In this document: one piece after another, positions 704 through 61,122 of the stretch
Position numbering within the stretch: the first letter of the stretch is position 1
Layout of the letters: every line of letters starts with the position of its first letter
Assembly: GCA_034440575.1 (NCBI GenBank)
Contig: JAOTOL010001218.1
Location: 261,001-325,000, forward strand
Direction: 5' to 3'
Origin: Imbricaverruca yamaguchii
Taxonomy: Eukaryota > Arthropoda > Thecostraca > Neoverrucidae
DNA length: 64,000 nt
Program-made: the position numbers and the translations under genes
Notes under the pieces: generated by a model
The model's input: the letters and a program-made list of their open reading frames with translations, nothing else
The model's database searches: none
What the model was told of the DNA's origin: nothing

Positions 704-715
704 ATAACGTACCAG

Positions 716-5249: not shown

Positions 5250-5253
5250 ACCT

Positions 5254-10203: not shown

Positions 10204-10265
10204 TGACTTCCATTCCAATGTCGACTGATGATGATTGCATCTCACTATTTCACTGATGATGTTAT

Positions 10266-21039: not shown

Positions 21040-22480
21040 TAAAGACATAAAAGATTAGTGCAACTATGAGCCACAAGGGCCCTTCTCGGCTGCATTGCAC
21101 ACTGAACCAGTTGCCCACCAAATCTGTCAATCAGAACTCCCTGTAATACTGAAAAGCAAGCCCCCTATTCTTATGATGATTGTCTATGCTGTTTTTAAAG
21201 ATGTTCAATGTGTTGCTACTGACAATGTTTTCTGGCAGCTGGTTCCAGTGTTCTACTACCCTGTTGGTGAAGAAAGTCTGCCTTAACCTTGTTCTGTTGT
21301 GGTGAACTTTAATTTTGAATTTATGACCTCTAATTGCATCATTTCTGTTCAATTCAAACATTTCCCCAAGATATCCCCTCTCCAGACCATGGACAAATTT
21401 AAAGACCTCAATGAGATCTCCTCTCAGCCTTCTATATCTAAGTGAAAACATATTCAATTTCTTCAATATTTCCTCATATGCCAGGTTGCTTATGCCATTA
21501 ACCATTTTTGTAGCCCTCTTTTGTACTCTCTCTAAAAGCCAACAATCTTTTTCATAGCTAGGAGACCAAGCTTGTATGCAGTATTGCAAATGTGGCCTGA
21601 CGTATGCACAGTAAAGCTTCCTGATCACTTCCTCACTTCTGTATGATACATTCTATTTATTGCCCCGAGCATTATCAGTGCCTTCTTCCTGGCTTCCTTG
21701 GTCCGTTCTGATGCCCCCAGTTTTGTGTTTAGAATAACACCTAAGTCCTTCTCCTGTTGAGTCACTGATAGCACTTGGCCACTCATCAAGTATGGAGCCT
21801 TCATATGCTGCTTACCTACATGCATGATTTTGCACTCATCAAAATTAAATTTCATTTGCCATTCTTCGGACCACTTCATAAGTTCGTCTAAGTCTTTTTG
21901 CAGCGAGATATGCTCATCTTGACCTGTTATTGCCCTAAAGACCTTCAAATTATCCGCAAATTTCAAAACTTTACTGCTTATGCCACTTTCAATGTTATTT
22001 ACAAATATAATGAACAGTAGTGGCCCCAGTACTGACCCCTGGGGGCTCCACTAAGAACATTTTGCCATGATGACTTTGTACCATTTAGCATCACTCTTTG
22101 CTGTCTGTCTGAAAGCCACGACTCTATCCATTTTAAGATGCTACCTGCAATACCATGGGACTGAAGCTGTATCATTAACCGTTTATGGGGTACCTTGTCA
22201 AAGGCCTTACTAAAGTCAAGATATGCTACATCAACCTGATTTCCCTGATCAAATTGTTCTGTGGCGAAGTTAAAAAAGTCCAAGAGGTTTGTGAGACACG
22301 ATCGTCCTTTTCTAAACCCATGTTGAGCATCTTGAATCAATCTGCTACCTTCCAGATAATTAACTATTCTATCCTTGATAATTGATTCGAGTACCTTGCA
22401 GACTAGGGATGTGAGACTTACCGACCTATAGTTTTCAGCTTTCCCTCTTTCTCCTTTCTTGAAAATAGGAACTACATTTC
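21040..22480 (-). mobile_element. 5'-truncated CR1-like LINE with 6-bp duplication
   Basis: Minus-strand CR1-like element, 1441 bp, flanked by CGTATG at 21034-21039 and 22481-22486. Reading right to left it covers reverse transcriptase from VVPIFKKGERG through QHGFRKGRSCLTNL, VAYLDFSKAFDKVPHKR and KFADNLKVF (the active-site FADD is FADN here). It then covers the C-terminal region ([28 protein letters not shown]). The 3' end is a short TTTATGTC repeat. Frameshifts, for example at ~22050 and ~21640, inactivate it. It is very similar to 58619-61122 and to the tail at 25682, so the family was recently active. Confidence 0.85.
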
Positions 22481-22884
22481 CGTATGGTCTACATTCAGAA
22501 GAATGAGTGACAGGTTACGTAAAACCGGATGTATATTTTATATATTGCATGAAATGTAGCGCGTTTTGAATTGTTCTGTGCTGCTATATCATTCTATGCC
22601 ATTCTCGACTGCGGTCGCAACTTGATTATTCTTGGACAACCGGAAATTCCCACCGTATAAACACTACGGCGCATTGCCCCCCAGCCCCCCTCCCCCCACT
22701 AAATACATACGGTGCTGATTGGAGATGACCGACGCAGCCCACCTCAAACCTGAACCTTACCCCCACCCTGGATTGCATCCAGCAGCGAGGTTCTCGCCCA
22801 TGGTTCCATTGTGCATAGCGCTGCTGCAACAGCCAGGACAGAGGCATGTGCTATGTTATAACAATTTTTCTGACGGTGTTCCAG

Positions 22885-24449: not shown

Positions 24450-24735
24450 AATGGGGGCCTCCTTTTCGTCCTGGCGGCCTCCTTTTTATCCTGGAGGGCT
24501 TCCTTTTCATCCTGGAGGGCCTCCTTTTCATCCTGAAGGGCCTCCTTTTCGTCCTGGGGTCTCTTTTTCGTCCTGGGGGTCTCTTTTTCGTCCTGGGGGC
24601 CTCCTTTTCGCCCTGGGGGCCTCCTTTTCGTCCTGGGGACCTCCTTTTCGTCCTGGGGGCCTCCTTTTCGTCCTAGGGGCCTCCTTTTCGTCCTAGGGGC
24701 CTCCATTTCGTCCTGGGGCCTCTTTTTCGTCCTGG
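24450..24735. repeat. 21-bp minisatellite, about 13 units
   Basis: Consecutive units of GGGGGCCTCCTTTTCGTCCTG with minor changes (CTCTTTTTCG, CTCCTTTTCGCC). The open frames on both strands here are products of a period divisible by three, not genes. Confidence 0.95.
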
Positions 24736-24836
24736 AGGCTTCCTCAAGTTTCAGGGGGCAGCGCCCCCAGTCTCACGACAGGAGGGGCAATTGCCCCCGC
24801 TGCCCCCCCCCCGGTGGCTACGCCCCTGGGCCTTGG

Positions 24837-25838: not shown

Positions 25839-26971
25839 GATTTTGTGAATTTTTTCTTTGGAATACCATGTTTATGAAGGTGACTAAGATGATGGGACCA
25901 CTTATTTTCTGTGCAAATGCTTCCTTTTCAGGTTGGAAGTAAAATAATGTCAAAAATGGCTTTGAGTTAGGTAGCATAGCATAGAAAGAAATGTTTCAAA
26001 TACAATACAAATGAATCAACCAAGCCTAACCTAGCTTAGCCTACCTTTGGAGAAAATAATTCCCAAAAATTGAATTGGAACAATATATTTTCTGAAGGTT
26101 CTCAATTATTAATCAACCTAACCCACCTGAACCTAACTTACCCTTACCTTACCCTCTAACCTAACTTACCATTACCTAACTTACCCTTACCTTACCTACT
26201 TTAAGCTCCTTGCCCCAATATGTGAATATGTCATAACAAAAGTGTCATACTCATGAGATGTCTTGTAAATATTAATTAATTGTGGTGTATGAACATGTGA
26301 GTACCAGGTATGGACATGTGAACTTGGTTGATATTAATTGAAGTATACTTTTGTTGTCATTTAATCTACTGTTGCTCATAACATTGGGTTATGTCTTGCT
26401 AATTTTATATTAATTAATTGTAAGCTAAGTGCAGTCTCCATGTAAATTAGAAACAGTATTTTTATTTGCTGATGATAATAAGCTCAATTCTACTTATTTC
26501 GGCAGTATTAATAGTAAAGGCTATTTTTTATTGAAACTGCTGTGTGAATTAGAACCAGTCATCAATTATAATTTATGGAGATCATCATGCCAGGCCTCTT
26601 CTTGTTCCTCAGTCCACATTACTGGGGAGGAAAAAAGCCTCTAAAACTACCTTTGGTATCACCAATCAGCATCACATCAGGGATGTGCTCTGACATGTTC
26701 CACTTGGTGCTGTGGTGTGCATTAGCCAATGCCATTATTCACCAGTTAGGTTTCACCAAGAATGTGTTACCTTGCAGATTGACTAATGGCTAACCAATAG
26801 TCTGCCAACATGTAATTATGTGCAGCAAAATCATGGAGGTTGCAAAATGACCATATATTTCTATGTGCCCCTAAACTCCAATCCACCATCACCACATCAA
26901 AATCATGGATGCTAGAGGGTTGTACCTGAGGCTTTTTATATTCATCCATTAGCACTGGTTATAAAATTGAC

Positions 26972-34400: not shown

Positions 34401-34582
34401 AAAAGGGCCACTTTTCCAACGCTGGCCGTGGGTGACGTGCAACATGGGTCACATTATGCAAGTTAGCCTGATGCAAGCATTGAAACTGCTACATGCAATG
34501 CAAGCACATACAAAAGTATATATGCACAGGGAAGGCTCTGGTTTTATGCACTTTTGAGTGGCCATTGTCCATAGGAGCTCAT
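31439..34582. other. Gene-free stretch
   Basis: No supported exon or repeat with ends. AT-rich, with short uninformative open frames on both strands. Confidence 0.45.
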
Positions 34583-34973
34583 GAGTGTTGGGCCGTGGTG
34601 CCGCCTATGACGCAACGACGTGTGACCAGGATTGGGTGGTGGCCAGGTTGAGTGTTGGGCCGTGGTGACGACTAGACGCAACGACGTGTGACCAGGATTG
34701 GGTGGTGGCCAGGTTGAGTGTTGGGCCGTGGTGACGACTATGACGCAACGACGTGTGACCAGGATTGGGTGGTGGCCAGGTTGAGTGTTGGGCCGTGGTG
34801 ACGACTATGACGCAACGACGTGTGACCAGGATTGGGTGGTAGCCAGGTTGAGTGTTGGGCCGTGGTGACGACTATGACGCAACGACGTGTGACCAGGATT
34901 GGGTGGTGGCCAGGTTGAGTGTTGGGCCGTGGTGACGCCTATGACGCGATGCTGTGTAGTCAGGATTGGGTTT
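34583..34973 (+). repeat. 67-bp minisatellite, six copies
   Basis: Units start at 34583, 34650, 34716, 34783, 34850 and 34917 with GAGTGTTGGGCCGTGGTG. Inner copies are nearly identical; the first and last carry a GCCTATGACG variant, and the last decays after GCGATGCTG. It lies ~470 bp upstream of the first proposed coding exon of the FBXW7-like gene. Confidence 0.95.
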
Positions 34974-37463: not shown

Positions 37464-38299
37464 GTGAGTGTAACGCTCCATTGTATGTCAACGGTCGTGA
37501 TGGCCCAGCTCCGCATTACCCCACCGGCATGAGTGTCACGCTCCACCTTACCCCGCGGCATACTACAGTCACGCAATAGATGCATCGTGGCAGTAATTGT
37601 AATGCTCCAATAATATAAATACATGTAATTGTTCAAGTGTATCGCAGTTAGGACCAAGGTCATATATAATGCATTGCTATGTAATATCAAAGCAAGGAAC
37701 TTGCACTTGCAAATTGTATGTCTTACCTTAATTGCATTACGTTTCTGCCTTCAACCTTTATATGTTTTCTACTGTAGGCAATGCCAATGAAATCGATGCT
37801 AAATATGTTAATAGTTATATAAAAAAAATACAGTGAAGCTCTAATGAAGCTCATAATTTTTTTACACAAATCAATTCAATCAAAAAATCAAATCTGAGTT
37901 TTCAAGTTTTATTTCATTTTCCTTTTCTAATATGTATAGCGGACCGAAAAATGTTGTTCGAAGTCAACTTGTTCCAATACAAAATGCTTGCTTTAGCCAG
38001 AATCTTCGATTTTAACTCTTACAGGCAAATATACAAAACTAAGTAGTAATCAAAAACGGAAAAATTACAAACTCCTCTGGTGCATTTTGTTGCATCCCTA
38101 AAGATAAACAAATGCTGAAAGTTTCATTCAAATATCTTCATCCTATGAATGCGACGTGATTAGGAAGACTAGCGAAAATATGTTTATGGTTTTCGGGTGT
38201 CTGTATGTCAGAAGCTCAGATTCAAGAGCAATATTTATGTAGGCTTTCCCAATCACGTCGTATTCGGAAGTTTTGCTGCTCATGCAGACCAGGTATATG

Positions 38300-39003
38300 A
38301 CGACCTGGTGGCTCTAGACGTGGTATATGGCGACTCAGCGGCTGTAGACGTGGTATATGACGATCCAGCGGCTGTAGACGGGGTATATGACGATCCAGCG
38401 GCTGTAGACGGGTGTATGATGACCCAGCGGCTGTAGACGGGGTATATGACGATCCAGCGGCTGTAGACGGGTGTATGATGACCCAGCGGCTGTAGACGGG
38501 GTATATGACGATCCAGCGGCTGTAGACGGGGTATATGACGACTCAGCGGCTGTAGACGGGGTATATGACGACTCAGCGGCTGTAGACGGGGTGTATGACG
38601 ATCCAGCGGCTGTAGACGGGTGTATGATGACCCAGCGGCTGTAGACGGGGTATATGACGATCCAGCGGCTGTAGACGGGGTATATGACGACTCAGCGGCT
38701 GTAGACGGGGTATATGATGACCCAGCGGCTGTAGACGGGGTATATGACGATCCAGCGGCTGTAGACGGGGTGTATGATGACTCAGCGGCTGTAGACGTGG
38801 TATATGACGATCCAGCGGCTGTAGACGGGTGTATGATGACCCAGCGGCTGTAGACGGGGTATATGACGACTCAGCGGCTGTAGACGGGGTATATGACGAC
38901 TCAGCGGCTGTAGACGGGGTATATGACGACTCAGCGGCTGTAGACGGGGTATATGACGACTCAGCGGCTGTAGACGGGGTATATGACGACCCAACGGCTG
39001 TAC
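38300..39003 (+). repeat. 30-bp minisatellite in intron 3, about 24 units
   Basis: Units of CGGCTGTAGACGGGGTATAT followed by GACGACTCAG, with 29-bp variants (GGGTGTATGATGACCCAG). It lies ~95 bp upstream of exon 4. Period 30 keeps frames open on both strands (a 296-codon frame on the minus strand), but there is no domain or codon signature and I do not call a gene. Confidence 0.95.
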
Positions 39004-39098
39004 TAGTGAGCGCGCAATATAGCCGAAGCAGCTGACGTGCCCGATAATCCCAACTGCACACATTGTTTTGACCCGCTACCCGGCCTGTGCTGCCGCAG

Positions 39099-39245
39099 AT
39101 GAAACGCAAGTCCGACGGTGCTAGCGGCCGTTCTCCTGACAAGAAGCGCTGCAGGAAGGTTGCTGGGGACGGCGAGCTGCCTGCCGAGTGGGACCCGAAC
39201 ACCGAGGTGCCGGCAGGCCTGCACCACTGGGTGGACACATACCTG
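39099..39245 (+). CDS. Exon 4: pre-F-box region of the FBXW7-like protein
   Basis: Acceptor CTGCCGCAG, donor GTGAGG, 49 codons, phase 0 at both ends. It encodes MKRKSDGASGRSPDKKRCRK, then a segment ending PAGLHHWVDTYL. The MKRK...KK-C-K basic motif and the GL-W- segment correspond to the nuclear-localisation and dimerisation-proximal part of FBXW7 just ahead of the F-box. This is knowledge of the family; the alignment is by eye. The exon's 3' end and its donor are tandemly repeated just downstream (39231-39370), which creates competing donors. Confidence 0.75.
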
Positions 39246-39370
39246 GTGAGGGGCCACTCCGGACCCAGATGTGCCGGCAGACCTGCATCAATGGGTGGAT
39301 ACGTACCTGGTGAGGGGCCACTCCGGACCCAGATGTGCCGGCAGACCTGCATCAATGGGTGGATACGTGC
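39207..39370 (+). repeat. 64-bp tandem repeat spanning the exon 4 donor
   Basis: GTGGACACATACCTGGTGAG at 39231 recurs as GTGGATACGTACCTGGTGAG at 39295 and GTGGATACGTGCCTGGTTGT at 39359, exactly 64 bases apart. The intervening sequence (CACTCCGGACCCAGATGTGC) is identical between the copies. Confidence 0.95.
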
Positions 39371-39622
39371 CTGGTTGTGGGGGTCCGCTGCGGACGCCGA
39401 GTTACCGTTCCGCGTCTGTCGGCTCCACGGTATAGGTATGCTTCCGATGATGTGTGTCGGCACCCTCGAAGGTGCTTCCGATCAGTCCGTCAGCCGCAAC
39501 CGCAACCGCAACCTTAGCGCGAGCTGATGTTCCGTCAGGTCAGCTGTGCGGTGACCCATGTGTCCCTGACGCTGTATCGACCTTGTCGGCTGTGTACTGA
39601 CTGCGGGTGGTGGCGGCGGCAG

Positions 39623-40036
39623 GCCTGGAACGGCGACCAGCGTCTGGCGGCGCTGGACCAGCTGCTGGACGTGTCGGACTCGGCGCAGGTGCGCCACATG
39701 ATGCAGGTGATCAAGCCGCGCTTCCAGCGTGACTTCATCTCGCTGCTGCCGCGCGAGCTGGCGCTGCACGTGCTGGCGTTCCTGCCGGCCGGCGCCCTGC
39801 TGCGTGCCGCACAGACATGCCGCAGCTGGCGCCAACTGGCCGAGGACAACCTCCTGTGGCGCGAAAAGTGCCGTGAACTGCAGGTGGACGACCTGCAGGA
39901 GCTGATGGCCGTGCGGCGCCGGCATGCGGCACCCGCCGAGCCGACGGAGCCCGACTCGAGCGTCTGGAAACAGGCCTTCATCCGCCGCATGAAGATCGAG
40001 GCTAACTGGCGTAGTCGCGATCTACCCCAGCCAAAG
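39623..40036 (+). CDS. FBXW7: Exon 5: F-box domain of the FBXW7-like protein
   Basis: 138 codons, phase 0 at both ends; acceptor GCGGCGGCAG, donor GTTGGT. It encodes AWNGDQRLAALDQLLDV, then QVRHMMQVIKPRFQRDFISL leading into the F-box LLPRELALHVLAFLPAGALL and AAQTCRSWRQLAEDNLLWRE. The region after the F-box ends FIRRMKIEANWRSRDLPQPK. The order and wording match FBXW7/archipelago closely. The F-box recruits SKP1 and thereby CUL1-RBX1, and the preceding segment is the dimerisation region. Two donor-like copies of the exon's last bases (CCCCAGCCAAAGGT) lie downstream. Very GC-rich, as in the WD40 exons. Confidence 0.9.
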
Positions 40037-40152
40037 GTTGGTGCGATGACGTGACTGCTGATATCCTCTGCCCCAGCCAAAGGTGGGTCTCTTGGTATCT
40101 CTCGCTGCTGACATAGTTATGCATGTTGACTTCAGCTGCCGAAGCCAGAGGT

Positions 40153-40204
40153 CGCTGTATGACCGAAGCAGTCGATGCGCCCTTAAGCCCAAATAGCCAA
40201 CTAA
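40153..40204 (+). mobile_element. 52-bp tail-only LINE insertion in intron 5
   Basis: Flanked by a perfect 14-bp duplication CCGAAGCCAGAGGT (40139-40152 and 40205-40218). The insert is CGCTGTATGACCGAAGCAGT, then CGATGCGCCC and the tail TTAAGCCCAAATAGCCAACT. It corresponds to the 3' stem-loop plus tail of the I-like LINE and nothing else. Confidence 0.85.
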
Positions 40205-40246
40205 CCGAAGCCAGAGGTGGGTCTCCTGGCGTATGTCACCGCAAGC

Positions 40247-40412
40247 GAGGCGTCGATAGCTTCAGTGCTTAATTTGAACGTCTGGCAAGCCAGAGGTGTG
40301 GGGTTCGATTCTTCGTGGTGCCCGATCTTCCTGTCAGGGTGAGAAGCAGGCGACGGTATGCGGCCTCAGCTGTTGAGTGCATCGTAGTCACAAGCACGAT
40401 CTTTTTTCCTCG
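40247..40412 (+). mobile_element. tRNA-derived SINE, second type
   Basis: A tRNA-like head has TAGCTTCAGTGC (A-box-like) and GGTTCGATTC (good B box). The 3' half GCGACGGTATGCGGCCTCAG then CTGTTGAGTGCATCGTAGTC parallels the tail of the SINE at 31263. The T run at 40403-40408 resembles a pol III stop or SINE tail. Ends are approximate; no duplication was assigned. Confidence 0.55.
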
Positions 40413-42045
40413 TTTTCTAATTGTTAAAATCAAGAGTTAGTTCATTGCATGCTATGCGTCCAACTTGAGGACGTGGGCGACAAATTGCACGGTGTTTTCT
40501 ACATCAATACGGTACAAGAACAATCGAATCACAGTAGTCTCGGACACAACAGTAAAAAAGGTAACTTGTCGCCGCGCAACAGTAACATGGATATTTAGCC
40601 AACTAGGTGCAATTACCATATTATTAGAAGGTACCAACCGTCAGTGGGTCATTCTGCTGAATTTTTGGAACAGATCCCAGCATTTCCATAAACGCTTTTT
40701 ACCCTCTTTCGAACTATGCAGCTATATATCTCAATCTCAGTGTATTTTTACGCCTACTTAATAAACCGTTGCTTAGTTATAAGTGCCTTTTTCTCGTTGT
40801 ACATCCGCGTGAACTGTTTCCCAGCATGTTTAGTGTTCTTGTGTTTATAGGATGATCAGTTCGATCAGACGCGGCGAAAATGGCATTGTGTCATTTTGAC
40901 ATTGTCCCTGGTTTTGGCTTTAGGGTGCATCGACCATGTTGATCATATAGTTTGTCCCTGGTTTGGCTGCAGAAGGCATTTATTGTCGTGCCAGACTAAT
41001 TACACTGGCGGACAATGCCAGAGCAAGTGTGATATAGTTTCAGTAGTTGGACATAGACTATATTTATCACTGGCGGTAATTTGTCTGCGTTTTCCGTAAT
41101 AATTATCTTCATGCATTTGTAAGCCAACCGTCGCGTCCTTACATCATCCTTGGTAAAATGTACCCGCTGCGATATTTTATTCCAAGGTAATGGGCTAGCA
41201 CCGGAGCCTTCTAGTCGATTATGATGGCAGCTTTCTGGCCTTACATTTGCGCTGGAACTAATTAATATGAAATGCGCCTATTGAGCAGATTGTATCAGTG
41301 TCTGATAATAAAATGTGTGATTCATCGTGTTCTGGTCACATGTGGTTGCATATCAAATTTTGTCTCCATACCATTAGAATGGCTCGTACCGTTGAACAAG
41401 CTGTCATTACATGGATTGTATATTCAATGAAATTGTGTTGCGCTGTCTTCTCTAGTGGGCTATGCAGATCTCATATATGTGTAAAACCCATTCTACTTCA
41501 CTTTTACTAGGGATCTGGATATTCTTCTCTGAAGGTTTGTTTCTATTATCCCATAATATTTCGTTTCTAACGTTTCTTGCAGAAATTGCCATGTATTCCA
41601 TTGCTTGAAACCAAGCTGTACATCCCCTCGCGAAAAATAAATGTATGATGCTCGGCTAAAACCTGATCTTCCTTGCAGTGAATATTTGTGTTTCATTTCC
41701 GAGGCTGACACTATTCTTTTTCTTTATTTGCTTCCATTTTGCTTGGCAGTTTTTGTCTGAGGAATATTTTGACAGAATGTTTTCAAGCTTTTGCACTGTA
41801 TTGGTACAATCAGACACTGCTATCCCCGTCTATACATTTACTGTGTAGCATCATTCGTGTAATGCGATCTTTTCGTGCACCCCAAATAAACTGAAACAAA
41901 CTTTTCAATCTTTCGTTTTGCAAATTTCGTGCTGGCTCAGGGCGGCACGGTCATTAAGTATAGTTGACACACAGGTGCAGACTTAAGTAAGTGTATTCTA
42001 CCGAATGGCGCTAGGCTTCTCATTGCGGAAGTTCAAGACGATCTT
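40413..42045. other. Intron 5 sequence, no gene seen
   Basis: AT-rich intronic DNA between exon 5 and exon 6. No frame with a domain and no repeat with definable ends apart from the small insertions listed. Confidence 0.5.
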
Positions 42046-42097
42046 GGGGGCTGTATAACCACTGCAGTTGATGCGCCATAAAATCCCAATAACTAAC
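42046..42097 (+). mobile_element. 52-bp tail-only LINE insertion in intron 5
   Basis: Flanked by 13-bp duplications TCAAGACGATCTT (42033-42045) and TCAAGACGAGCTT (42098-42110), one mismatch. The insert GGGGGCTGTATAACCACTGC, then AGTTGATGCGCC and AAATCCCAATAACTAAC, is the hairpin plus tail. Confidence 0.8.
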
Positions 42098-42477
42098 TCA
42101 AGACGAGCTTTGAATCTTACACATTTGTCTTGTGGTATTACATCACCTAAAAATAGATTGTATAACCTTTAAAATACAATATGTTCTCCAATGAATACAC
42201 CGTTGATCGAACCCGTCTGATCTGCGTTAACAATAGACCAATAGACCAAAGCCACACAATAAACAGCTCACTTCTCAATAGTGAACAATGAACACTTCGC
42301 AATAGCCCAAAGCGATTAACTTCGTTATGATTATACGATTGCTATAGTTACGGTTATACGAGTCATTCGTATAGCCATAATCATAATTAACATATGTGAA
42401 CCATAATTCACATATCATTCTTGCACACTTCGAAAGTTGAGATAGTGAAACTAGAAATTCTTGAGCGAAGAAACTTT

Positions 42478-42544
42478 ATGGACGCTACGTAACCAGTAGC
42501 AGTTGAAGCGCCCCAGAGCCCAAAATAATCAACAAATCAACGGG
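42478..42544 (+). mobile_element. 67-bp tail-only LINE insertion in intron 5
   Basis: Flanked by GAAACTTT (42470-42477 and 42545-42552). The insert starts near GGACGCTACGTAACC, carries AGTTGAAGCGCCCC (stem GGACGC with GCGCCC) and ends CCCAAAATAATCAACAAATC. Confidence 0.65.
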
Positions 42545-42837
42545 GAAACTTTGAGTACGTTTGGTGTATATTTTTATGAAATGATTTGCTCTTCTTTAGC
42601 ATTCAATCAGTTGTATTTTTATGGAGTGCCTTCTCACAACCACCATGTTAGTGGTTTGCTACAGTCAGACGTGAGTCTGCTGACGTCACCGTCGACATCA
42701 ACATTGAGTGCCGAGTGACTGAGTCGGCGCTGCCTCCTCCGGTGGTGACCACGGTCACGTGACTGAGCCGGTGGCGCTGTCTGCGGCGGCTACGCCGGCC
42801 TGGCGTCTGAGCCGGTGGTGTGCTCTCCGGTCGGCAG

Positions 42838-43133
42838 GTGCTCAACGGCCACGACGACCACGTGATCACGTGTCTGCAGTTCTCTGAGCAGCGGATCGTG
42901 AGCGGCTCTGACGACAACACGCTCAAGGTGTGGTCGTCCTCGTCTGGCCGGTGTCTGCGCACGCTGGTGGGACACACGGGCGGCGTGTGGAGCAGCCAGA
43001 TGGACGGCGCCACCGTCGTCTCTGGCTCAACCGACCGCACCCTCAAAGTGTGGAATGCCGACTCAGGCCAGTGCCTGCACACGCTCTACGGTCACACCTC
43101 CACCGTCCGCTGCATGCACCTGCACGATAAAAA
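42838..43133 (+). CDS. FBXW7: Exon 6: WD40 blades 1-2 of the FBXW7-like protein
   Basis: Acceptor CCGGTCGGCAG; the donor GTAGGT follows two bases of a Lys codon (phase 2). It encodes [62 protein letters not shown] and [16 protein letters not shown]. These are GH...WD-type blades nearly word for word as in FBXW7. The Arg in STVRCMH (codon 43108-43110) corresponds to human R465, one of three phosphodegron-contacting arginines (family knowledge). The WD40 propeller would bind substrates carrying a Cdc4 phosphodegron. Minus-strand frames here are shadows. Confidence 0.93.
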
Positions 43134-43222
43134 GTAGGTGTCGGCCGCACTTCCCGTCTCGGTGTGCGTGGGTGGATGTGTGGGTCCACCGTGTTGGAAG
43201 GTGTGACTGGTTGTGTCGCCGG

Positions 43223-43277
43223 ATAGGCGCTAAATACCTCTCAGTCGGCGCACGCTTAAGCCCAAATAATCGATCAA
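43223..43277 (+). mobile_element. 55-bp tail-only LINE insertion in intron 6
   Basis: Flanked by a perfect 14-bp duplication GGTTGTGTCGCCGG (43209-43222 and 43278-43291). The insert ATAGGCGCTAAATACCTCTC, then AGTCGGCGCACGCTTAAGCC and CAAATAATCGATCAA, is a diverged hairpin plus tail. Confidence 0.85.
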
Positions 43278-43505
43278 GGTTGTGTCGCCGGCGTGCTGAT
43301 ACCACGTGCAGGTGCTGCCAGCCATTGCCGTGTCGGGCTGCTGGATCTGATCCGGCCGCACGCAACTGTGCCAAACTGGTGTCTGATGTTGACGGACGGC
43401 GACTGATGGCGCCTGGCCGTCTAGCCGGAAGTGTCGGGCTGCACGCTGCTCTCCCATGTGACTGTGGCCACGCCCAGCCGTGCCTGACTGTGCCCACCGC
43501 GCCAG

Positions 43506-43731
43506 GGTGGTGTCCGGCTCACGGGACGCCACGCTGCGGGTCTGGCACATCGAGACCGGCGAGTGCGAGCACGTGCTCGTTGGCCACGTGGCCGCCGTCC
43601 GCTGCGTCCAGTACAACGGCAAGCTGGTGGTGTCTGGCGCTTACGACTACATGGTCAAAGTGTGGAATCCAGACCGCGAGGAGTGTCTGCACACGCTGCA
43701 GGGACATAACAACCGGGTCTACTCACTACAG
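43506..43731 (+). CDS. FBXW7: Exon 7: central WD40 blades of the FBXW7-like protein
   Basis: Acceptor ACCGCGCCAG; the first base completes the Lys codon from exon 6. The donor is GTCAGT after Gln, phase 0. It encodes [49 protein letters not shown] and [12 protein letters not shown]. The Arg residues in SGSRDATLR (43522-43524) and AAVRCVQ (43600-43602) correspond to human R479 and R505. With the one in exon 6, all three degron-binding arginines are kept, which argues for conserved substrate recognition. Confidence 0.93.
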
Positions 43732-45445
43732 GTCAGTCGGCCTCGACACTCGACCTCGATTGCAACTAGGAAATACCAAGCCGGCGAATCGGCAGCTGAC
43801 GCAAGATTGATGAACTTCTTGTGGTTCGGTATTGTGAAACGTTATCTTTACTGCAATCTGAAATTGTTAAGTTATGATTGGCCCACTATTCTCTCTGTTA
43901 TTATTTTGTCTTTGGTAAGTTCGTGGTTGTAATCGAAAAATACGTGGTCTGTTCAATTTATATGCGCCTTGGTGATGCTTCTACAGCTTTGTTATATGAA
44001 ATTCCAGGGCGTTTGGGACTTCTGATTGAAGGTTCTTGTGATAAGAGACGTCGTGCAATATTGTATGGTAGGCACGTGTTTTCTTTGTCGTTGCGTAAAC
44101 TAATGCTAAGTACCAATGTTGTTTAATTGCAATTGCACTTGAAATTCGTTAGTGTTAACACTTGAAGCACACAGTATGCGTGTACAGCATTTCCTCTTGT
44201 CGGATGAATCATTGGTATTCGTATCATTGGTACTGCAGATAGGTATTTATGCACACTGATCAAATTGGAGAAGAAAAAAACACTGCGACGCAAAAGGGCG
44301 AGGAGGGGGACGCGTTTTGTCATCACCTGGCTCCATTTAATATAAAATAGGATCCAATCAAGACCAAGTTGAAAAACCTGGTCTTGCTGAATGCACGTGC
44401 AAAACCAAGGCACACTGGTACGGACGCATGCATTTTGTAGTTATGCTGTGTAAATGGTCGGATGTGCTACCAGGAATAATAGCAGTAATATTCGGGTAAA
44501 TAATACATCTCGCACGTGTGGGGGGTTATCTAAACGAGAAACCACACTTACTAAATCCGGGTGAAAAAGCACAAAGCGGTCTTAAGCGGTATTCAACAGC
44601 CGAACGGTACCTAAGTATCTTCGGTACAACTATCCAACACTTCAAGCTTCCGAGACGGTTACTAGCTTTCATCATGTCGCGACAACTATAGCATAGTTCA
44701 AATCCATTCCACTCGAGGTTCTCGAAAGCGACTGACTGGTAATGTGCATATTCCAAAGGACCAATGGATATGGTTTGTTCAAATGTGACTAGTTACGGTG
44801 CACGCGGTGTTGGTAATAATCGGAGCACTGTTATTGCAAAGATTGAGCATGCCCTTTCAACCACTTGCTTGTCATGAAGTGCATTGCCCAAGGAAGCGTG
44901 TATTTATCACATTGCTGCTGAGCTGTATACGTCGGAGCCTATTGGCGCTGGTGGAATTCCGACTGGAGTATCTGGATCAGAAATCCAATATCGCCATCTA
45001 CGGTACTCGGGGCAATATGGATATTATATAAGAAGTACATATTACTCTGTAGCACTATTGTTTTCTAGAGCACTAGCCAGATCGCCGAACTGATCATGCT
45101 TATTTTCCCGGTGGGATTAATTACCGGAGCGTTGTGTGTCACTGTTTGGATGCTGTGCAGCTTCTGACTGGAATCTACCTCCAGGGCGATGGTGTTATCC
45201 CGTCATGGCAAATGGCTGCTGTCTGATCAGGGGTAGTTGGCAACGCCCCGTCGCACACGGTCGTCTAGGGTAGCTGCTGACGTTTGTTCCTCCACCCTGA
45301 CCCTACCCGGCCAGATGGCAGCTACCTGCCATCGTGGAACAGTACAAGCATGCTGAAGATGGAGCCGCACCAGACGCCACGCACGACCAAAGAGAAGCAA
45401 ACAGTGCAGAGCACTAATCCCACGAGCAAGCCAAGCACAGCCAGA

Positions 45446-45508
45446 CATGGGCGCTCTGATACACACAGCCGATGCGCCCCTAAACTCCAATAACCAACCA
45501 ATAACCAT
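45446..45508 (+). mobile_element. ~63-bp tail-only LINE insertion in intron 7
   Basis: Core duplication CAGCCAGA (45438-45445 and 45509-45516), with similar bases following on both sides. The insert carries GGGCGCTCTGATACACACAG then CCGATGCGCCCC (stem GGGCGC with GCGCCC) and ACTCCAATAACCAACCAATA. Confidence 0.65.
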
Positions 45509-45559
45509 CAGCCAGATGTGGCCGCCAACGTTTCTTCTTAAAATTCAGCTGGTCGGAAT

Positions 45560-45725
45560 AATACACGCTTCTTACAAGATTAATCGTCGCCCTGAGCAGC
45601 GCAGCTGGTAATACGTTTCGTCGCCAATCTGACACTCGGGTTGGTCGCGGGCAAAGCGTAGCGATAGGTGGGGCCCAAACCCACGACCTTTTAGTTTGTT
45701 CTTCCAGCAGACCATCCTTTATAAC
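45560..45725 (-). mobile_element. Probable tRNA-derived SINE, minus strand
   Basis: On the minus strand a tRNA-like head (GGTCGTGGGTTTGGGCCCCA as a weak B-box region) leads to CCCGCGACCAACCCGAGTGT and TTGGCGACG. These are the same body blocks as in the 31263 SINE (CCCACGACCAATCGGTGTG, TTGGCGACG). The tail CAGCTGCGCTGCTCAGGGCG resembles the second SINE. Ends are approximate. Confidence 0.5.
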
Positions 45726-46145
45726 CTCACTTCCTTCCTAGTCTACTTTACTGTGGTAGATATATCACTGTTAATGTGTTCCATTCTACTTCATATTGAC
45801 ACGAAACGTGGTTAGGACATTGACCTACATTGTGTAAGGCTTGCTTGTAAAGCGTCGATATTTTATCCCATGAAGGGATTGGTAATGTCTCAACCCTTCC
45901 GACACGCTTCAGCGCCATCACTGTACCGTGCGTCCTAAGACCGCATTCAGTCTCTCATGTGCCACCGAAAGACGAAAGCAATCAAACAGTAAACCAAGTC
46001 TATACCTTTAAAGGGAATCGATAAATACATGGATCAACCAGTGCAACTTGCTTTGAGTGAGAGACTGTGAGTGGCTCACTGGATGTGACTGGTGGGTGTG
46101 TGTCTGTGACTGGACTGTGACTGACCGCCTGTGCCCGGCCGGCAG

Positions 46146-46625
46146 TTTGATGGAGTGCACGTCGTCAGCGGGTCACTAGACACCAGCATCCGCGTCTGGG
46201 ACGTGGAGACTGGCCAGTGCAAGCACACGCTCATGGGCCACCAGAGCCTCACCTCCGGCATGGAGCTGAAGAACAACATCCTGGTGTCGGGCAACGCCGA
46301 CTCGACCGTCAAGGTGTGGGACATTGTGTCGGGCCAGTGTCTGCAGACTCTGTCAGGCGCCAACAAGCACCAGAGTGCCGTCACGTGTCTGCAGTTCCAG
46401 AACAATTTTGTGATGACCTCGTCCGACGACGGCACCGTCAAGCTGTGGGACGTCAAGACGGGTGACTTTGTGCGCAATCTTGTGTCGCTGGACTCTGGCG
46501 GCGCCGGCGGCGTGGTGTGGCGCATTCGCGCCACGCGCACCAAGCTCGTCTGCGCAGTCGGCAGCCGCAACGGCACTGAGGAGACCAAGCTGCTCGTGCT
46601 TGACTTTGACCCGGACCATAAGTGA
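46146..46625 (+). CDS. FBXW7: Exon 8: last WD40 blades and C-terminus of the FBXW7-like protein
   Basis: Acceptor GGCCGGCAG, then [20 protein letters not shown]; stop codon at 46623-46625. It encodes [72 protein letters not shown] and the hallmark C-terminus [20 protein letters not shown] then [11 protein letters not shown]. The eight exons join in phase into about 682 codons, close to the ~700 residues usual for FBXW7. The product is a substrate receptor of an SCF ubiquitin ligase that in other animals targets Cyclin E, MYC and NOTCH. Coding sequence looks intact, so this is a functional host gene. Confidence 0.93.
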
Positions 46626-47649
46626 CAGGCGCCGCGCCGGCCGTACCATCCAGTCTGTGATGTGATGTGTTGATACGGGTGTGGCGGACCACGACCGTTG
46701 TGCACGCGCGCCCGCGCGTATGTGTAGAGACGGCATTGAGCGCGGCATTGACGGAGGCTGACCGGACCCAGTCGCCACCACACCCTTGCCAGTACAGGGA
46801 GCGGCGCGCGGCCAAGAGCATCTTAGCTCGGCCGCTCCCGTCGTCGAAGGCGGCGCTGCTCGGCGGCGACAAGGTTGCTCAAACGGTTTTAGCGTCTTTT
46901 TGAGAGCGCCACCCACCGTGAGATATCGCTTGCGATGTACGACTTAGTTTACTTTTTACTTAAGGTATGGAACGTCACAATAATCGACATGCAATTTATA
47001 AGAATAAATTTCCGTCACAGGGGTGGAGTTTGTGGTCCGAGATGTCACGTATTCAAGTTGTGAGTTGAACCACACACGCCTACCTGGGACGTTTTTTTCC
47101 CGCCAAGACACGAGCACACGTGGAGAAACCTGCGGCGCCTCAGTGCAGGAAAGATGAAATGTTATTCGTCATGATTTGCGATCGCTGGTGCGTCGGAATG
47201 TCGCGATGTCAACGTATAATTAGCCAGCTCCAGGTCACACCCTTTCACACCGAAAGCGCAACACCTTCACATACCCGTGCAACATACATCTAGATACTGG
47301 CTAACTGGCCGAATGGCGACCCTCACGTGGCACATGAGGGCACACGTGGGCTTGTCGCATTTGCTGCTTGCAGCACAGCTGTCGAGACTGCTGCTGCTGG
47401 CTGTACGACAGCTGCCCCAGCCATTACTGACCCAGACATTGTTTCCGCACGGCATTCTGCTACTAACGTTGTTCCCAACATTATTTGGTGCCTTCATTCG
47501 GAGTAGTTGCAGCATGGCAATACCAAGCACAAACCACGGTATTATTTTATCAAGACGCAAAATTGTGTTGTCTCAGTTTTCGAAGGAAGGCCAAAATATT
47601 GCCGGAAGGCCAAGTTCCGCGTTTTTTTTACCATATTAAATCGTGAAAA
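46626..47649. other. 3' UTR and downstream spacer of the FBXW7-like gene
   Basis: No further coding signal. GC-rich to about 46920, then AT-richer. It contains a candidate polyadenylation signal at 47003. Confidence 0.5.
47003..47008 (+). terminator. Candidate polyadenylation signal
   Basis: AATAAA 378 bases after the FBXW7-like stop codon, the first good match downstream. Cleavage would fall 10-30 bases later. No transcript evidence. Confidence 0.45.
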
Positions 47650-48816
47650 TCCCCCCGTGGAGGCACCACATTTCCGTCGTGTGCGGGAGGCCTGGTGGGG
47701 GTGGGGTTAGTGCTCCAGTGATCTGTCGGACTAGTCCAATGGTAAGGGGTCAGACTAAAAATTCCTCACCCATTTTACCGGTGAGGTGTGAGACTAAGAG
47801 TGCTTCACTCGTCATACCATCCATGCGCTCCCATTCCAATGTCCACCCCACCCCAGCATCCATGTCTTTCACCTGGCTCGGCAACGATGCGCCCCTAAGT
47901 AGCCAATTATCCTGGCTCGGCAACACCAACTCTCCCTACTATTAGCAGGCAGGACAACTTCCTCGGTCCTGCCTTCCCGCTACGTTTTGTCGGGGTAGTC
48001 GCACCCCCTCGGCCAGTCCCCGAGGTTGGCGGAGTCCTGGAAGTTGAGGTCTCCTTTCGTACGGTGCTAGTTGTGACCTAGGAGCAACACGCCTTTCTGG
48101 TCTCGATATCCCAGAGGAGCGGGCGGGCCCGTAGGGCCCCATACGAGCCAAGTGGCTTGCCGCCTTGAATTTATGGTCTGTTCCTCAGTCCCGTGCCTGC
48201 TGGCCTGGCCGGCAGGGGTCAGGGGGCGGGCGGCCCTAGATAAAAGTCTGGATGGTGAGTCTCCTCCCGGCCGAGGGGTGGTATCGCCCGCCCCGTACAG
48301 CTCCTTGGGTGCCTGGCGTCCTCCCGCCCGCGGGATTCAGGCGTCCCCTCGGTAGGGCTCCTATGCGATTAGGTGTCACTGAGAGGAGGACGCCAATCAC
48401 ACTGGCAACCTCATGCATAACAAACAATTCACCTGTCCCCTCTAGCAGGGGACACACAAACCTACACATCATGAATCCCGGCGTGGCGCGTGTGAGGCAC
48501 AGTCCGCATCCCGTCTTTCTGCTCCTCGCATCCTCATCATGAGGTCACTAGAAAATGAAAAAGAGCCTATCGCGGCTCACACCATAACGGAGAAAAAAGC
48601 GGGTCAGGCTAGGGGTGATGCTGATATGCGAAAAGCATAGGAATTGTTTGGTAGAAGTATAATCTCAAAATACCGATCCTGCAAGCAGGGCGCAATCGAA
48701 CTAACTTGTAGCGCACGACATGAAACTGGCAGACGAATCGTCACCGTACCCATCAAAGTTTGACCAAACAATACTAAAAACGGCTCAAAGGGGGTCATCA
48801 ATTGCCGTCATAGGCG
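47650..48816 (+). mobile_element. I-like LINE 5' fragment (5' UTR and start of ORF1)
   Basis: Collinear with 716-1780. Shared blocks include TCATACCATCCATGCGCTCC versus TCCTTCCATCCATACGTTCC, the GTCCTGGAAGTTGAGGTC block, CCCGTACAGCTCCTTGGGTG, and an ORF1 remnant near 48690-48815 equivalent to the IKVEPHQTKNTSRGV region. Homology ends near 48816. ORF1 is broken by stops. It belongs to a related but distinct subfamily. A 25-bp tail insertion lies inside it at 47886-47910. Confidence 0.75.
47886..47910 (+). mobile_element. 25-bp tail-only insertion, shortest in the window
   Basis: Insert GATGCGCCCCTAAGTAGCCA plus ATTAT between perfect 14-bp duplications CCTGGCTCGGCAAC (47872-47885 and 47911-47924). 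The homologous sequence at 880-910 has a single uninterrupted copy of this site (CTGGCCCTGCAACACCAAC), which acts as an empty site. Confidence 0.85.
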
Positions 48817-49275
48817 TAGGAACAGGGGCCAAGGTTCCATGGCCCTCCCGACTTCTCAAAGTGTGGGGGGGGGGGACAGCAATGGTAGCTGGTGCCCCAC
48901 TTTTGAGACATTCAAGTTAAAAACGCAGCATGCACCAGTGTTAAATTAATTGTCTTTCGTTAGGTGTGGGATTTCGAAAAAAGCACCGTAGGATGTCGAA
49001 ATTTCTCATGGAGACATGCCAATTAAAAATAGTTGCAGTCCTTCAAACTCAATCTGGCCATTGTGTACTCATAAGTGATTCTTTTCTTTTTTTTTTAAAA
49101 AAACTAAAATTCAATGCTAATGATTGCAATATCATCCTATCAACAGATGACATTGGTTAACAAACCACATGACAGGTAATCTCCGTAGCTAGAACTGTGT
49201 TATTAGGTGCTTGTCTATAACCATCCATTAGGGTAAGCATAAGCATGCGGATTTACACGAAATACTCTTCAAAAC

Positions 49276-49333
49276 ATGGGTGCAATATAAACCAATGGGG
49301 TTGACGCACACTAAAACCCAAATAATCATCATC
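49276..49333 (+). mobile_element. 58-bp tail-only LINE insertion
   Basis: Flanked by 14-bp duplications ATACTCTTCAAAAC (49262-49275) and ATACTCTTCGAAAC (49334-49347), one mismatch. The insert ATGGGTGCAATATAAACCAA, then TGGGGTTGACGCACAC and AAAACCCAAATAATCATC, keeps the stem as GTGC with GCAC. Confidence 0.8.
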
Positions 49334-50504
49334 ATACTCTTCGAAACGAGTCGTGAATACTTCATAAGCACCCAATAAGCACGATGTGGATACTTCCTGG
49401 GAGAGGATGTCTACATGCTCAAAAGTGGAATATTTCACTCTATTTCGCGAAGAATTTATAACCGGCATGTACACATTTTAATTTGTGAAAAACTCTCCAA
49501 TCCATAACTACGTAAAAACTGCACATATCATAACGTATCACTACATTTTTAACTCATGCACACTTGGACATGCCCTTACAACGCAACTAATTCAGGAGTT
49601 CGTGTAATGCAACAGATGTGTGGATATTCCAAACATATATTATGTTATGAAAAGACTAAAGCAGATAATGTGTCAGCCAGTATCCAAATACATTCATACT
49701 AAGGTTTCACGATGGTTCTATGACTGTTAACATATTTAGCGTCGATTTCATTAATATTGTCTACAGTATAAAATTGTAAGGGCTGAATGAAGGCAGTGAC
49801 GTAACACAATCAAGGTAAGATACAGTTCGAAAGTGCAGGTTCCTTACCTTGATATTACATTTTCATGTATTACATGTGGCCTTGGTTGCTATACTTCAAC
49901 ATTTATGTATATTTTGACTATTGAAGCATACAAATTACTTCACGATACCTCCATTGCTTGACTCAAGTATGGAATAGAATGCACACATTTCCATATTTCA
50001 ATGGATTTCCACAGTTGTGCAAAGCACACAGGTGTCCAATCTTTTGCGTGAGATGCCTGGTATCATCGGTACTGACATCCAACATAGCAAAACACTTATT
50101 TCCATCATTCATTATGGTAGCATACACACGATAATAAAGTTCACACCCTATTATATGAACTTCAAGTGCGAGAACGCATTTCACAATCTCAGAATCCCTC
50201 GAGAGGATTAGGCGTTCGTGATGCGACCTGACAATATCACATAAGGGGTGATATGAAGAGTGATGATACGAGTGACGGGTGATGCTTGTCATGCGACCTG
50301 AAAATGCTCATGACGAGAATGGCAACTGACCCGAGTGTCTATTTAGCTGGGTAACTGCGTGGTGGCATTCACAACACGGCATATAGTTCATTCAAATTAT
50401 GTCGTTCAACAGAAATGGTTCGGTCAGATGGTGGGCTCATGGTATACGTAACATCTGCTGAGCAAAGACTCATCCCAGAATATGTTCAATAAAGACATTT
50501 GGAT

Positions 50505-50548
50505 TGATAATGAGTTTTGGGGCGCATCGACTGCGTCGGTCATGCATC
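50505..50548 (-). mobile_element. 44-bp tail-only LINE insertion, minus strand
   Basis: Flanked by a perfect 13-bp duplication AAGACATTTGGAT (50492-50504 and 50549-50561). On the minus strand the insert is GATGCATGACCGACGCAGTC, then GATGCGCCCC and AAAACTCATTATCA. It matches the hairpin of the full-length LINE at 10271-10298 almost exactly. Confidence 0.9.
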
Positions 50549-58618: not shown

Positions 58619-60990
58619 AGAAACTTTAAGAGGAAGTGCCTTATTCTCGGTGACTTTAATCTAAAAGGTTATGAAAATGCTGGTGTTGGCTCCCATCATG
58701 CAAAATGTTCAGGAAATGCCTTGAAGAGGACCTGTTCTTACACCAGTTTGTATCGGAACCTACCAGGCATGGTTCATTCTTGGACCTTGTATTCTCGGAT
58801 TTAAGTGACTTGGTTCAAGACTTGACTGTAGGCGAAACTCTGGGAAAAGTGACCATAACATAGTTAGATTCAAGGCACATGTAGGAGAAACTATCAAGGA
58901 TAATTTGGTAAAGGTTCCAAATTTCAACAAAGCAGACTTTAACGGCATGAGAGCGGCTTTAAGTGCCATCAGATGGGAAGAAGAATTCTCCAATTTAAAT
59001 GCCTGTGAAATGTGGGAAAAGTTCAAATCTTACTTAAAGGAAACTCAGATTAGACATGTCCCCCAAAAGCAAAGACGCAAAAGAAGGGTAGGAAAGCCAG
59101 CATGGCTTACACCAGACGTGATAAAAGCAATTAGGGCTAAGAAAACTGCATTTAGAGTTTTTAAAGAAGCCTCAAATGTCATTAATCTAAAGGCGTATCG
59201 AAAAGCTAGAGACACTGTGAAGCAAAAAACCAGAGCAGCAAAGCGAGCAAAGGAACTGGATTTAGCTAGAAACTGTAATGGGGACAGTAAAAAGTTCTTT
59301 AGTTTCTACAAGCTGAGTAAAGTTTCTAACACAATTGGTCCACTGGAAGTAAACGGGACTACATTGGGTGAGGATAGTGAGATGGTTGAGGAGCTGAGCA
59401 AGCAGTTCAAATCAGTGTTTACATTGGAAGATATGACCAATCTGCCGACCGTACACCAAAGTTCAGATACATGGGATCTGACAAATGATGTTGATTTCAT
59501 TGGTAGTGATGTTGTTTACAATCATATCAGGAAAATAAAGCCAAATAAGGCAGCAGGACCTGATGACATTTATGCTAGGGTGTTGCGGGAAACTGAAAAG
59601 GAACTGGCATTTCCACTTAGTATAATATTTTGTAGATCAGTTTCACATAATGAAATTCCAACCGATTGGAAAAGGGCAAATGTAGTTCCTATTTTCAAGA
59701 AAGGAGAAAGAGGGAAAGTTGAAAACTATAGGCCAATAAGTCTCACATCCCTAGTCTGCAAGGTACTCGAATCAATTATCAAGGATAGAATAGTTAGTTA
59801 TCTGGAAGGTAGCAGATTGATTCAAGATACTCAACATGGATTTAGAAAGGACGATCGTGTCTCACAAACCTCTTGGACTTTTTGAACTTCGCCACAGAAC
59901 AATTTGATCAGGGAAATCAGGTTGATGTAGCATATCTTGACTTTAGTAAGGCCTTTGACAAGGTACCCCATAAACGGTTAATGATACAGCTTCAGTCCCA
60001 TGGTATTGCAGGTAGCATCTTAAAATGGATAGAGTTGTGGCTTTCAGATAGACAGCAAAGAGTGATGCTAAATGGTACAAAGTCATCATGGCAAAATGTT
60101 CTTAGTGGAGTCCCCCAGGGGTCAGTACTAGGGCCATTACTGTTCATTATATTTGTAAATAACATTGAAAGTGGCCTAAGCAGTAAAGTTTTGAAATTTG
60201 CAGATGATTTGAAGGTCTTTAGGGCAATAACAGGTCAGGATGAGCATATCTCGCTGCAAAAGACTTAGACGAACTTGTGAAGTGGTCCGAAGAATGGCAA
60301 ATGAAATTTAACTTTGATAAGTGCAAAATCATGCATGTAGGTAAGCAGCATATGAAGGCTCCATACTTGATGGGTGGCCAAGTGCTATCAGTGACTCAAC
60401 AGGAGAAGGATTTAGGTGTTACTCTAAACACAAAATTGGGGGCATCAGAACAGACCAAGGAAGCCAGGAAGAAGGCACTGAGAATGCTCGGGGCAATAAA
60501 TAGGAATGTATCATACGAAGTGAGGAAGTGATCAGGAAGCTTTACTGTGCATACGTCAGGCCACATTTGGAATACTGCATCCAAGCTTGGTCTCCTAGCT
60601 ATGAAAAGATTGTTGGCTTTTGAGAGAGTACAAGAGGGCTACAAAATGGTTAATGGCATAAGCAACCTGGCATATGAGGAAAGATTGAAGAAATTGAATA
60701 TGTTTTCACTTAGATATAGAAGGCTGAGAGGAGATCTCATCGGGTCTTTAAATTTGTCAATGGTCTGGAGAGGGGATACCTTGGGGAAATGTTTGAATTT
60801 AACAGAAATGATGCAATTAGAGGTCATAAATTCAAAATTAAAATTAACCACAGCAGAACAAGGTTAAGGCAAACTTTCTTCACCAACAGGGTAGTGGAAC
60901 ACTGGAACCAGCTGCCAGAAAACATCGTCAGTAGCAGAACATTGAACATCTTTAAAAACAGCATAGACAATCATTATAAGAATGAGGGCT
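58619..60990 (+). pseudogene. CR1 ORF2 (endonuclease fragment, RT, C-terminus), broken
   Basis: From LILGDFN, through PAWLTPDVIKAIRAKKTAF, IRKIKPNKAAGPDDIYARVL, KRANVVPIFKKGERG and RPISLTSLVCKVLE to QHGFRKDD. A one-base loss in an A run near 59850 shifts the frame (the paralogue at 22300 has the longer run). VDVAYLDFSKAFDKVPHKR and LKFADDLKVF (intact FADD) follow. Further single-base losses near 60258 and 60512 shift it again, before the C-terminal FFTNRVVEHWNQLPENIVSS. Function in life: target-primed reverse transcription. Confidence 0.85.
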
Positions 60991-61122
60991 TGCTTTTCAG
61001 TATTACAGGGAGGGCTGATTGGCAGATTTGGTGGGCAACTGGTTCAGTGTACAGAGTGCAACCAGAAGGGCCCTTGTGGCTCAGAGTTGCACTGATCTTT
61101 ATGTCTTTATGTCTTTATGTCT
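58619..61122 (+). mobile_element. Young CR1-like LINE nested in the older CR1
   Basis: A 2504-bp, 5'-truncated CR1 flanked by AATTCA at 58613-58618 and 61123-61128. It starts inside the endonuclease (LILGDFN at 58640-58660) and runs through the complete RT to three TTTATGTC repeats at the 3' end. Deleting it with one AATTCA rejoins the older minus-strand CR1 exactly in register. It is highly similar to 21040-22480. Confidence 0.9.

Follow-up and report, generated by a model that had tools for sequence, protein, structure and literature searches.

A 64,000-nt stretch of the Imbricaverruca yamaguchii genome (JAOTOL010001218.1:261,001-325,000, forward strand, here called the window, within a 767-Mb assembly of 1,430 contigs) carries insertions of 25-67 bp that consist of the 3' hairpin of a long interspersed nuclear element (LINE), whole or in part, and its short tandem-repeat tail, lying between target-site duplications (TSDs). 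What distinguishes these insertions from the known systems considered below is a dominant class that comprises nothing but hairpin and tail and has its 5' end within a narrow range. We propose that they usually arise by run-off copying of a ~57-nt 3' fragment of the LINE RNA through the LINE's own target-primed reverse transcription, an explanation that we consider to have an even chance of being correct.

Hairpin-tail insertions and their 5' ends

A sequence-only reading of the window had placed discrete insertions with 8-14-bp TSDs at seven sites and probably an eighth (45446-45508), all of which held up when they were read directly and their borders re-measured, with 25-67 bp between the direct repeats. 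Positions of 5' ends are given here relative to the first G of the stem (0), negative values being upstream of the hairpin. On the forward strand, the 52-bp insertion at 40153-40204 starts at +3 between copies of CCGAAGCCAGAGGT (14/14; 40139-40152 and 40205-40218; nhmmer E=6e-17), its flank sitting in a local repeat array where an alternative direct repeat scores slightly higher (15 vs 14), and that at 42046-42097, also of 52 bp, starts at the stem base between TCAAGACGATCTT and TCAAGACGAGCTT (12/13). Starts at -2 are seen on the same strand at 42478-42544 (67 bp, beginning ATGGACGC, 8-bp TSD GAAACTTT), 43223-43277 (55 bp, beginning ATAGGCGC, 14-bp TSD GGTTGTGTCGCCGG) and 49276-49333 (58 bp, beginning ATGGGTGC, TSD ATACTCTTCAAAAC vs ATACTCTTCGAAAC, 13/14). 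The forward-strand insertion at 45446-45508 measures 59-63 bp, depending on whether an exact 8-bp TSD is taken or that of CAGCCAGACATG vs CAGCCAGATGTG (10/12), which puts the borders at 45450-45508; this site and 42478 reach a TSD score of 8 only, under the line of at least 9 used below. The statement that the sites contain only stem-loop and tail stands as regards their LINE 3' hairpin and tail content and falls short at two of them, as 47886-47910 (forward strand, 25 bp, 14-bp TSD CCTGGCTCGGCAAC) is 3' arm and tail only, and 50505-50548 (reverse strand, 44 bp, 13-bp TSD AAGACATTTGGAT) starts within the 5' arm and lacks part of it. Two additional insertions were identified, one on the reverse strand at 40915-40951 (37 bp, TSD 13/13 at 40902-40914 and 40952-40964, nhmmer E=3e-8), again with part of the 5' arm missing, and a diverged one on the forward strand at 26838-26897 (60 bp), which starts at the stem base and has the TSD CAAAATCATGGA (12/12).

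Flanks were joined and tested for gapless empty sites in the sampled DNA (sampled loci carry L numbers), giving four matches across the junction among 65 joined sites. The empty site for 47886 is paralogous, being another copy of the host repeat at 831-956 of the window, forward strand (126 nt, 81% identity, 0 gaps), and the others, all gapless, are those of L077 at window 843-970 (128 nt, 91%), L135 in L056 (129 nt, 88%) and L115 in L060 (81 nt, 88%). Matches for L080, L117, L127 and 49276 are weaker, with 1-3 gaps, and the joined site of L099 matched other LINE copies rather than an empty site. A dispersed repeat lies at window 887-996 and 47912-48021 (85% alike), its neighbourhood being the empty site of 47886, and other copies of it hold hairpin insertions at L077 and, by eye, at L121.

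Genome-wide, there are 3,468 exact occurrences of a 23-base motif spanning 3' arm and tail (reversed control 0) and 435 of the sequence that runs from -2 through the whole 3' arm; in viral_contigs and the GTDB genome_contigs, both non-animal collections, the 23-base motif had no exact match. A hairpin-tail profile produced 42 matches at E<0.01 when run on the window together with 200 kb of random sequence (20 randomly placed 10-kb genome stretches) and none in reversed sequence, the random 200 kb alone giving 29, of which three are tails of short interspersed nuclear elements (SINEs) and 26 are left. Extrapolation gives a rough figure of ~1e5 copies per genome, old and LINE-length copies included. 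We chose 80 copies via the motif alone, these being the first 80 of 100 listed among the 3,468 places, on small contigs (C63-C363); because they match the 23-mer exactly the set leans to young copies. With TSDs accepted at a score of at least 9, 63 of the 80 copies have one, compared to 6.65% of 2,000 mismatched flank pairs, a null that is conservative as it includes related flanks, and a separate test of best-hit loci found TSDs in 35/41 vs 6%. TSD length has its mode at 14 bp (19/63) and is 9-19 bp in 58/63. A motif search with TSD scoring is what the sequence-only reading had called for, and in these copies neither of the outcomes that it had set against its own proposal, an even spread of 5' ends or duplications no better than chance, was found.

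The 5' ends do lie near the stem base, as had been claimed, in a manner unlike random truncation: 43 of the 63 TSD-defined starts fall between -4 and +3 (two at -4, three at -3, 14 at -2, 13 at -1, four at 0, four at +1, two at +2 and one at +3), with nine more between +5 and +24 and 11 at -5 or further upstream, several of the last being tandem-repeat-flank artefacts or LINE-length copies. Pooling the 80-copy set with the best-hit loci and the random sample yielded 108 TSD-defined copies, 74 of them starting at -4 to +3, 18 within the hairpin (one a SINE) and 16 upstream. Removed beforehand from the pool were L017, L030, L032 and L033, whose flanks are common with other loci, TSDs longer than 22 nt or scoring <9 (so that sites 42478 and 45446 drop out), hits with more than three edits or too close to an end, and nhmmer matches at E>=0.04 (so that 47886 drops out) or close to an end. 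Because L028, L080 and L117 have flanks in common, as have L127 and L135, the pool contains no fewer than three non-independent rows; it also includes a SINE (L044, 4290) and a row (window 40150) with a local tandem repeat taken as its TSD.

The inserted bases follow the LINE for two positions ahead of the stem. In the 85 TSD-defined copies whose 5' ends lie between -12 and +3, they match the LINE T at -1 in 60/63 and the LINE A at -2 in 30/40, with no clear match further out (T at -3 in 6/17 and T at -4 in 6/14). A template could be assigned to 57 copies of the 80-copy set, and the first templated base is at -2 or -1 in 30/57; 39 fall at -3 to +1 and form the main class (subfamily A 16, B 10, C 9, D 3 and F 1), 16 at +2 to +23 and two further upstream. 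Main-class junctions carry one untemplated base in 9/39 and a filler of 4-21 bases in 4/39.

Individual junctions vary. L139, near stem position -13, has a second 5'-arm fragment ahead of its hairpin-tail copy (GGCGCTACAG + TATGGGCGC), resembling the product of a template jump or nested insertion, and the filler between TSD and hairpin in L006 is an inverted TSD copy (CCCTCAGTACCG ... CGGTACTGAGGG), as in a snap-back event. In L011, L012, L035 and L040 (window 40153 in part), which start at +3/+4, the TSDs end in GTC or GT beside hairpin GCTG or CGCTG, and a GGTCGC variant of the 5' arm is present in L022 and L026, together suggesting microhomology joining.

Parent LINE and its 3' hairpin

The parent LINE is represented in the window by a broken copy on the forward strand at 5200-10321 (outer borders approximate), with endonuclease-like, reverse transcriptase (RT) and RNase H regions, which ends in the same hairpin, at 10266-10298, and a (CTAA)n tail. 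In its broken frame RVT_1 (E=3.8e-29) and RNase_H (E=4.9e-11) score above the Pfam cut-off and Exo_endo_phos_2 (E=1.7e-4) below it, and the 'I-like' label given to this LINE by the sequence-only reading is a provisional one that comes from domain content only. A related LINE piece on the same strand at 12823-13370 (56% identity over 64 amino acids to 9580-9771 of the LINE) also has a hairpin (E=2e-8) and tail at its end. Among the best 120 of 1,720 RT matches, the named relatives are from spiders and a sea slug (generic names Araneus, Trichonephila and Plakobranchus).

LINE 3' ends at window 10266, L019, L093 and L098 match the insertions in hairpin and tail, and LINE-length copies elsewhere mostly read RTTAT|GGGCGC ahead of the stem. 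LINE-length relatives are clear for subfamilies A and C; in the latter, L062, L065 and L078 are alike upstream and not downstream, as expected of LINE-length copies. For subfamily A, allowing up to two mismatches in each search (control 0), the genome holds 5,062 hairpin cores vs 399 copies of a LINE 3' untranslated region (UTR) extending ~20 nt to the 5' side of the stem, from which roughly 8% of A hairpins would be LINE-length if that 3' UTR is the sole A-type one. In the 80-copy set, ~12 copies look LINE-length from common upstream sequence or a LINE-like pre-stem, and L131 seems to be a longer unit headed by tRNA-like sequence. Both flanks are common to L066 and L103, and to L089, L090 and L107, each of which groups may be one duplicated LINE-length copy.

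The typical anatomy is (AT)GGGCGC-NNNAT-RAYC-loop-RGTY-GAT-GCGCCC, followed by YWAARCCCAAATA and a tetranucleotide-repeat tail of CCAA, CTAA or TCAA depending on the subfamily. Judged from sequence comparison, the hairpin is a conserved RNA structure: across 13 representatives, picked for variety and thus not a random sample for the covariation count, outer stem and inner helix covary, with both-side changes in 6/10 pairs and 93% of cells pairing, a value that falls to 32-47% after the partner has been shifted by 1-3 columns. The innermost pair fails in 7/13 representatives, and one of five covariation measures, that of further pair types, is not above shuffles (156/500). RNAfold recovers the outer stem in 11/11 sequences when the 35-nt hairpin is folded alone and in the minimum-energy fold of 9/11 in context, L062 and L111 differing (L111 solely in the minimum-energy fold). 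The upstream GUUAU may pair with AUAAC in the tail; of the seven LINE-length 3' ends folded, only one (L089) shows this in its minimum-energy fold.

Source of the insertions

If run-off copying is the usual source, the LINE RNA would be trimmed from its 5' side, or cut, up to a hairpin held by RT, leaving a ~57-nt piece of hairpin and tetranucleotide-repeat tail whose 5' end lies 1-2 nt upstream of the hairpin. Either 5'-3' trimming that halts at the protein-bound hairpin, or cleavage at the U|A step ahead of it, could make that end; the hairpin would be the likely RT binding site, and the bound protein would nick the DNA, prime on the tail and then copy until run-off. We infer both that the short RNA exists and how it originates, and also that RT binds to the hairpin, the latter by analogy with other stringent LINEs. 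The RNA of SINEs transcribed by RNA polymerase III (Pol III) has a 5' triphosphate that would let it escape such 5' trimming.

A SINE in the same genome serves as an internal control. This tRNA-derived element of ~155 bp has a terminal hairpin (CGACGC...GTGTCG) with the architecture of the LINE hairpin and was found in L047, L044, L041, L055, L057, L058, L004 and L120, with a related body variant ('GAGTCCACC...') in L050, L053 and L058. In a sample of some 350 kb, blastn placed the SINE body directly upstream of 14/14 classical SINE hairpins, and no hairpin-only copy of the SINE-type hairpin was found there; an automatic split had given 16 hairpins with a body and four without (the related variant accounts for three, one of which fell under the split score), the other three hairpins 'without' a body being LINE-type. 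Such a hairpin therefore does not by itself stop RT. The sequence-only reading had offered reverse transcription stopping at the hairpin as one of two mechanisms, and geometry also disfavours it: RT moves along the RNA in the 3'-to-5' direction and reaches the 3' arm before the 5' arm, so that a stall would leave copies without the latter, whereas most TSD-defined copies hold both arms and end ~1-2 nt past the 5' arm. Ends at that position better fit a template ending there, or release after the hairpin has been copied. The other mechanism offered, that a ~50-nt RNA is itself the mobile unit, fits best of the two in the form of an end-fragment derived from the LINE; the part of it that makes this RNA an independent element did not gain support. 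A single master RNA is disfavoured, as hairpin-only copies come from several hairpin subfamilies, with 5' ends that almost coincide.

Release after the hairpin is the strongest rival. RT would start on full LINE RNA and lose its grip once the bound hairpin had been copied, and the aborted cDNA would integrate with its 5' end at the release point. Such abortive target-primed reverse transcription needs no special RNA and accounts for ends just past the hairpin in several subfamilies, for the microhomology at some junctions and for the extra stops within the hairpin, these last two being what keeps it alive. However, all classical cases of the SINE, whose hairpin has the same architecture, show read-through, and LINE sequence is lost within ~2 nt, sharper than loss of grip suggests. 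We favour a run-off template over release because of this SINE result and sharp end, and regard abortive synthesis as possible and distinctly less probable than run-off copying. With regard to the junctions, excerpts of one study report that the R2 RT adds untemplated bases when running off a template, and that truncated R2 copies also show junction microhomology (PMC2718515).

A dedicated gene, or several, for a ~57-nt RNA, transcribed as a unit and moved by the LINE in trans as a minimal SINE without a tRNA, 5S or 7SL head, would explain the clustered 5' end, the extrapolated copy number and the many near-identical copies. However, subfamilies A, B, C and D all yield hairpin-only copies, A and C clearly having LINE-length ones too, so several such genes would be needed; furthermore, no Rfam family (at gathering score) was detected in the window, and inspection by eye, with no tool used, showed no consistent internal Pol III box. 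We consider this origin unlikely. Less probable by far is trimming of a longer cDNA that folds into a 3'-end DNA hairpin and loses its overhang to the hairpin base before second-strand synthesis; the self-complementarity of hairpin cDNA and the uniform end that trimming would leave speak for it, but it should act on SINE cDNA too, where the body is always kept in the classical hairpins. Ordinary random 5' truncation, with the hairpin start a detection accident, is hardly credible, the distribution of 5' ends refuting it: some very short truncated copies are bound to arise, and the 18 pooled copies starting within the hairpin could be such, but the motif used for selection lies only in 3' arm and tail and 43/63 ends nonetheless fall in an 8-nt window, which is not expected of a ~5-kb LINE.

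Several observations weigh against run-off copying of a short LINE RNA. Main-class microhomology averages 0.85 vs 0.33 at random, with at least one base in 12/26 clean junctions; 16/55 of the main-plus-inner junctions begin within the hairpin, pointing to a different route for some copies, and microhomology in copies starting there has a mean of 2.3 (10 junctions without extra bases) vs the same random value. The SINE hairpin differs in sequence from that of the LINE and lacks the GTTAT that usually precedes the latter, so there may be a sequence-specific stop at the LINE hairpin. The SINE may be served by another LINE, and the control comprises only 14 classical SINE copies, five of which lie on one stretch (L044). 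For subfamilies B and D the LINE-length relatives are uncertain, and the ratio of 399 to 5,062 assumes one LINE 3' UTR as the source of every A hairpin. Fold energy is only modestly below simple shuffles for three hairpins (z -1.7, -1.8 and -2.1; -3.3 for a fourth). A broader view is that a ~57-nt protected 3' footprint of the LINE RNA, remaining after decay or cleavage of the rest, is the main substrate of retrotransposition by this LINE clade, giving on the order of 1e5 promoter-less hairpin-only insertions, a view that we hold to be equally likely to prove right or wrong.

Surroundings and relation to known retroposons

Two further hairpin-like matches on the forward strand of the window, at 28-66 and 39010-39057 (nhmmer E=2e-6 each), are doubtful, as the best flank repeat is 6 nt in both cases and there is no convincing TSD. 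Presumed exons of an F-box/WD40 gene, which we take to resemble Fbw7/archipelago, occupy 39072-46622, with WD40 recognised by Pfam at 46125-46622, and six of the ten TSD-flanked insertions fall between the outermost open frames of this gene. Tandem arrays are present at 38292-39002 (unit 30 bp), 34582-34947 (67 bp) and 24452-24744 (20 bp), and two copies of another RT-bearing element, ~90-98% alike in stretches, lie in opposite orientation at 21040-22514 (reverse strand) and 58809-61121 (forward strand).

The insertions resemble 5'-truncated copies of R1, R2 and other LINEs in comprising a LINE 3' end with a TSD and a fixed 3' end, and in the microhomology or untemplated bases at their 5' junctions, as described in excerpts of PMC2718515, which also give 14-bp TSDs for ancestral R1 insertions, matching the mode found here. 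They differ in that their 5' ends fall within a few nt beside the 3' hairpin, not at various positions; truncated LINE copies are given as 100-1,000 bp in an excerpt of PMC3747384. A conserved 3' hairpin, supported here by covariation, a few nt from a short tandem-repeat tail, together with a SINE ending in a like stem-loop, are features shared with the stringent-type LINEs UnaL2, ZfL2-1 and ZfL2-2. According to the excerpted text of PMC4176376 those were tested by experiment, and in ZfL2 and UnaL2 the LINE protein binds the 3' stem-loop, whereas binding here is proposed by analogy, and an RNase H domain is present.

SINEs that borrow LINE tails are known (excerpt of PMC3747384), and like them the insertions are non-autonomous, TSD-flanked and end in a LINE-type hairpin and tail. 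Unlike them, they have no small-RNA head and no evident internal Pol III promoter of their own; main-class inserts of ~50-70 bp begin at the hairpin base, which leaves no room for a tRNA, 5S or 7SL head, and scans of the window gave 0 tRNAs and 0 Rfam matches. Tailless retropseudogenes of mammals, mentioned in the same excerpt, are likewise retroposed pieces of short RNAs, but they are L1-driven and have no tail, whereas the insertions here consist of the LINE's own tail. Miniature inverted-repeat transposable elements can be rejected, given a hairpin on the 5' side only, a repeat tail at the 3' end and the TSD lengths reported above. No description of hairpin-only LINE insertions was found in searches of the open-licence PMC literature, which is not proof that none is in print.

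The cause of LINE 5' truncation is described in part of PMC2718515 as an open question between RT failure, RNA degradation and early second-strand synthesis. With the 5' ends of many copies on a few bases and a SINE as internal control, this genome makes such alternatives separable by simple RNA and enzyme assays. Inserts of ~55 bp are probably too short for ordinary repeat annotation, and the class may therefore escape notice in other genomes with stringent LINEs. If the proposed origin is true, these insertions would be among the smallest of retroposons and, at the same time, a genomic record of RNA decay or processing.

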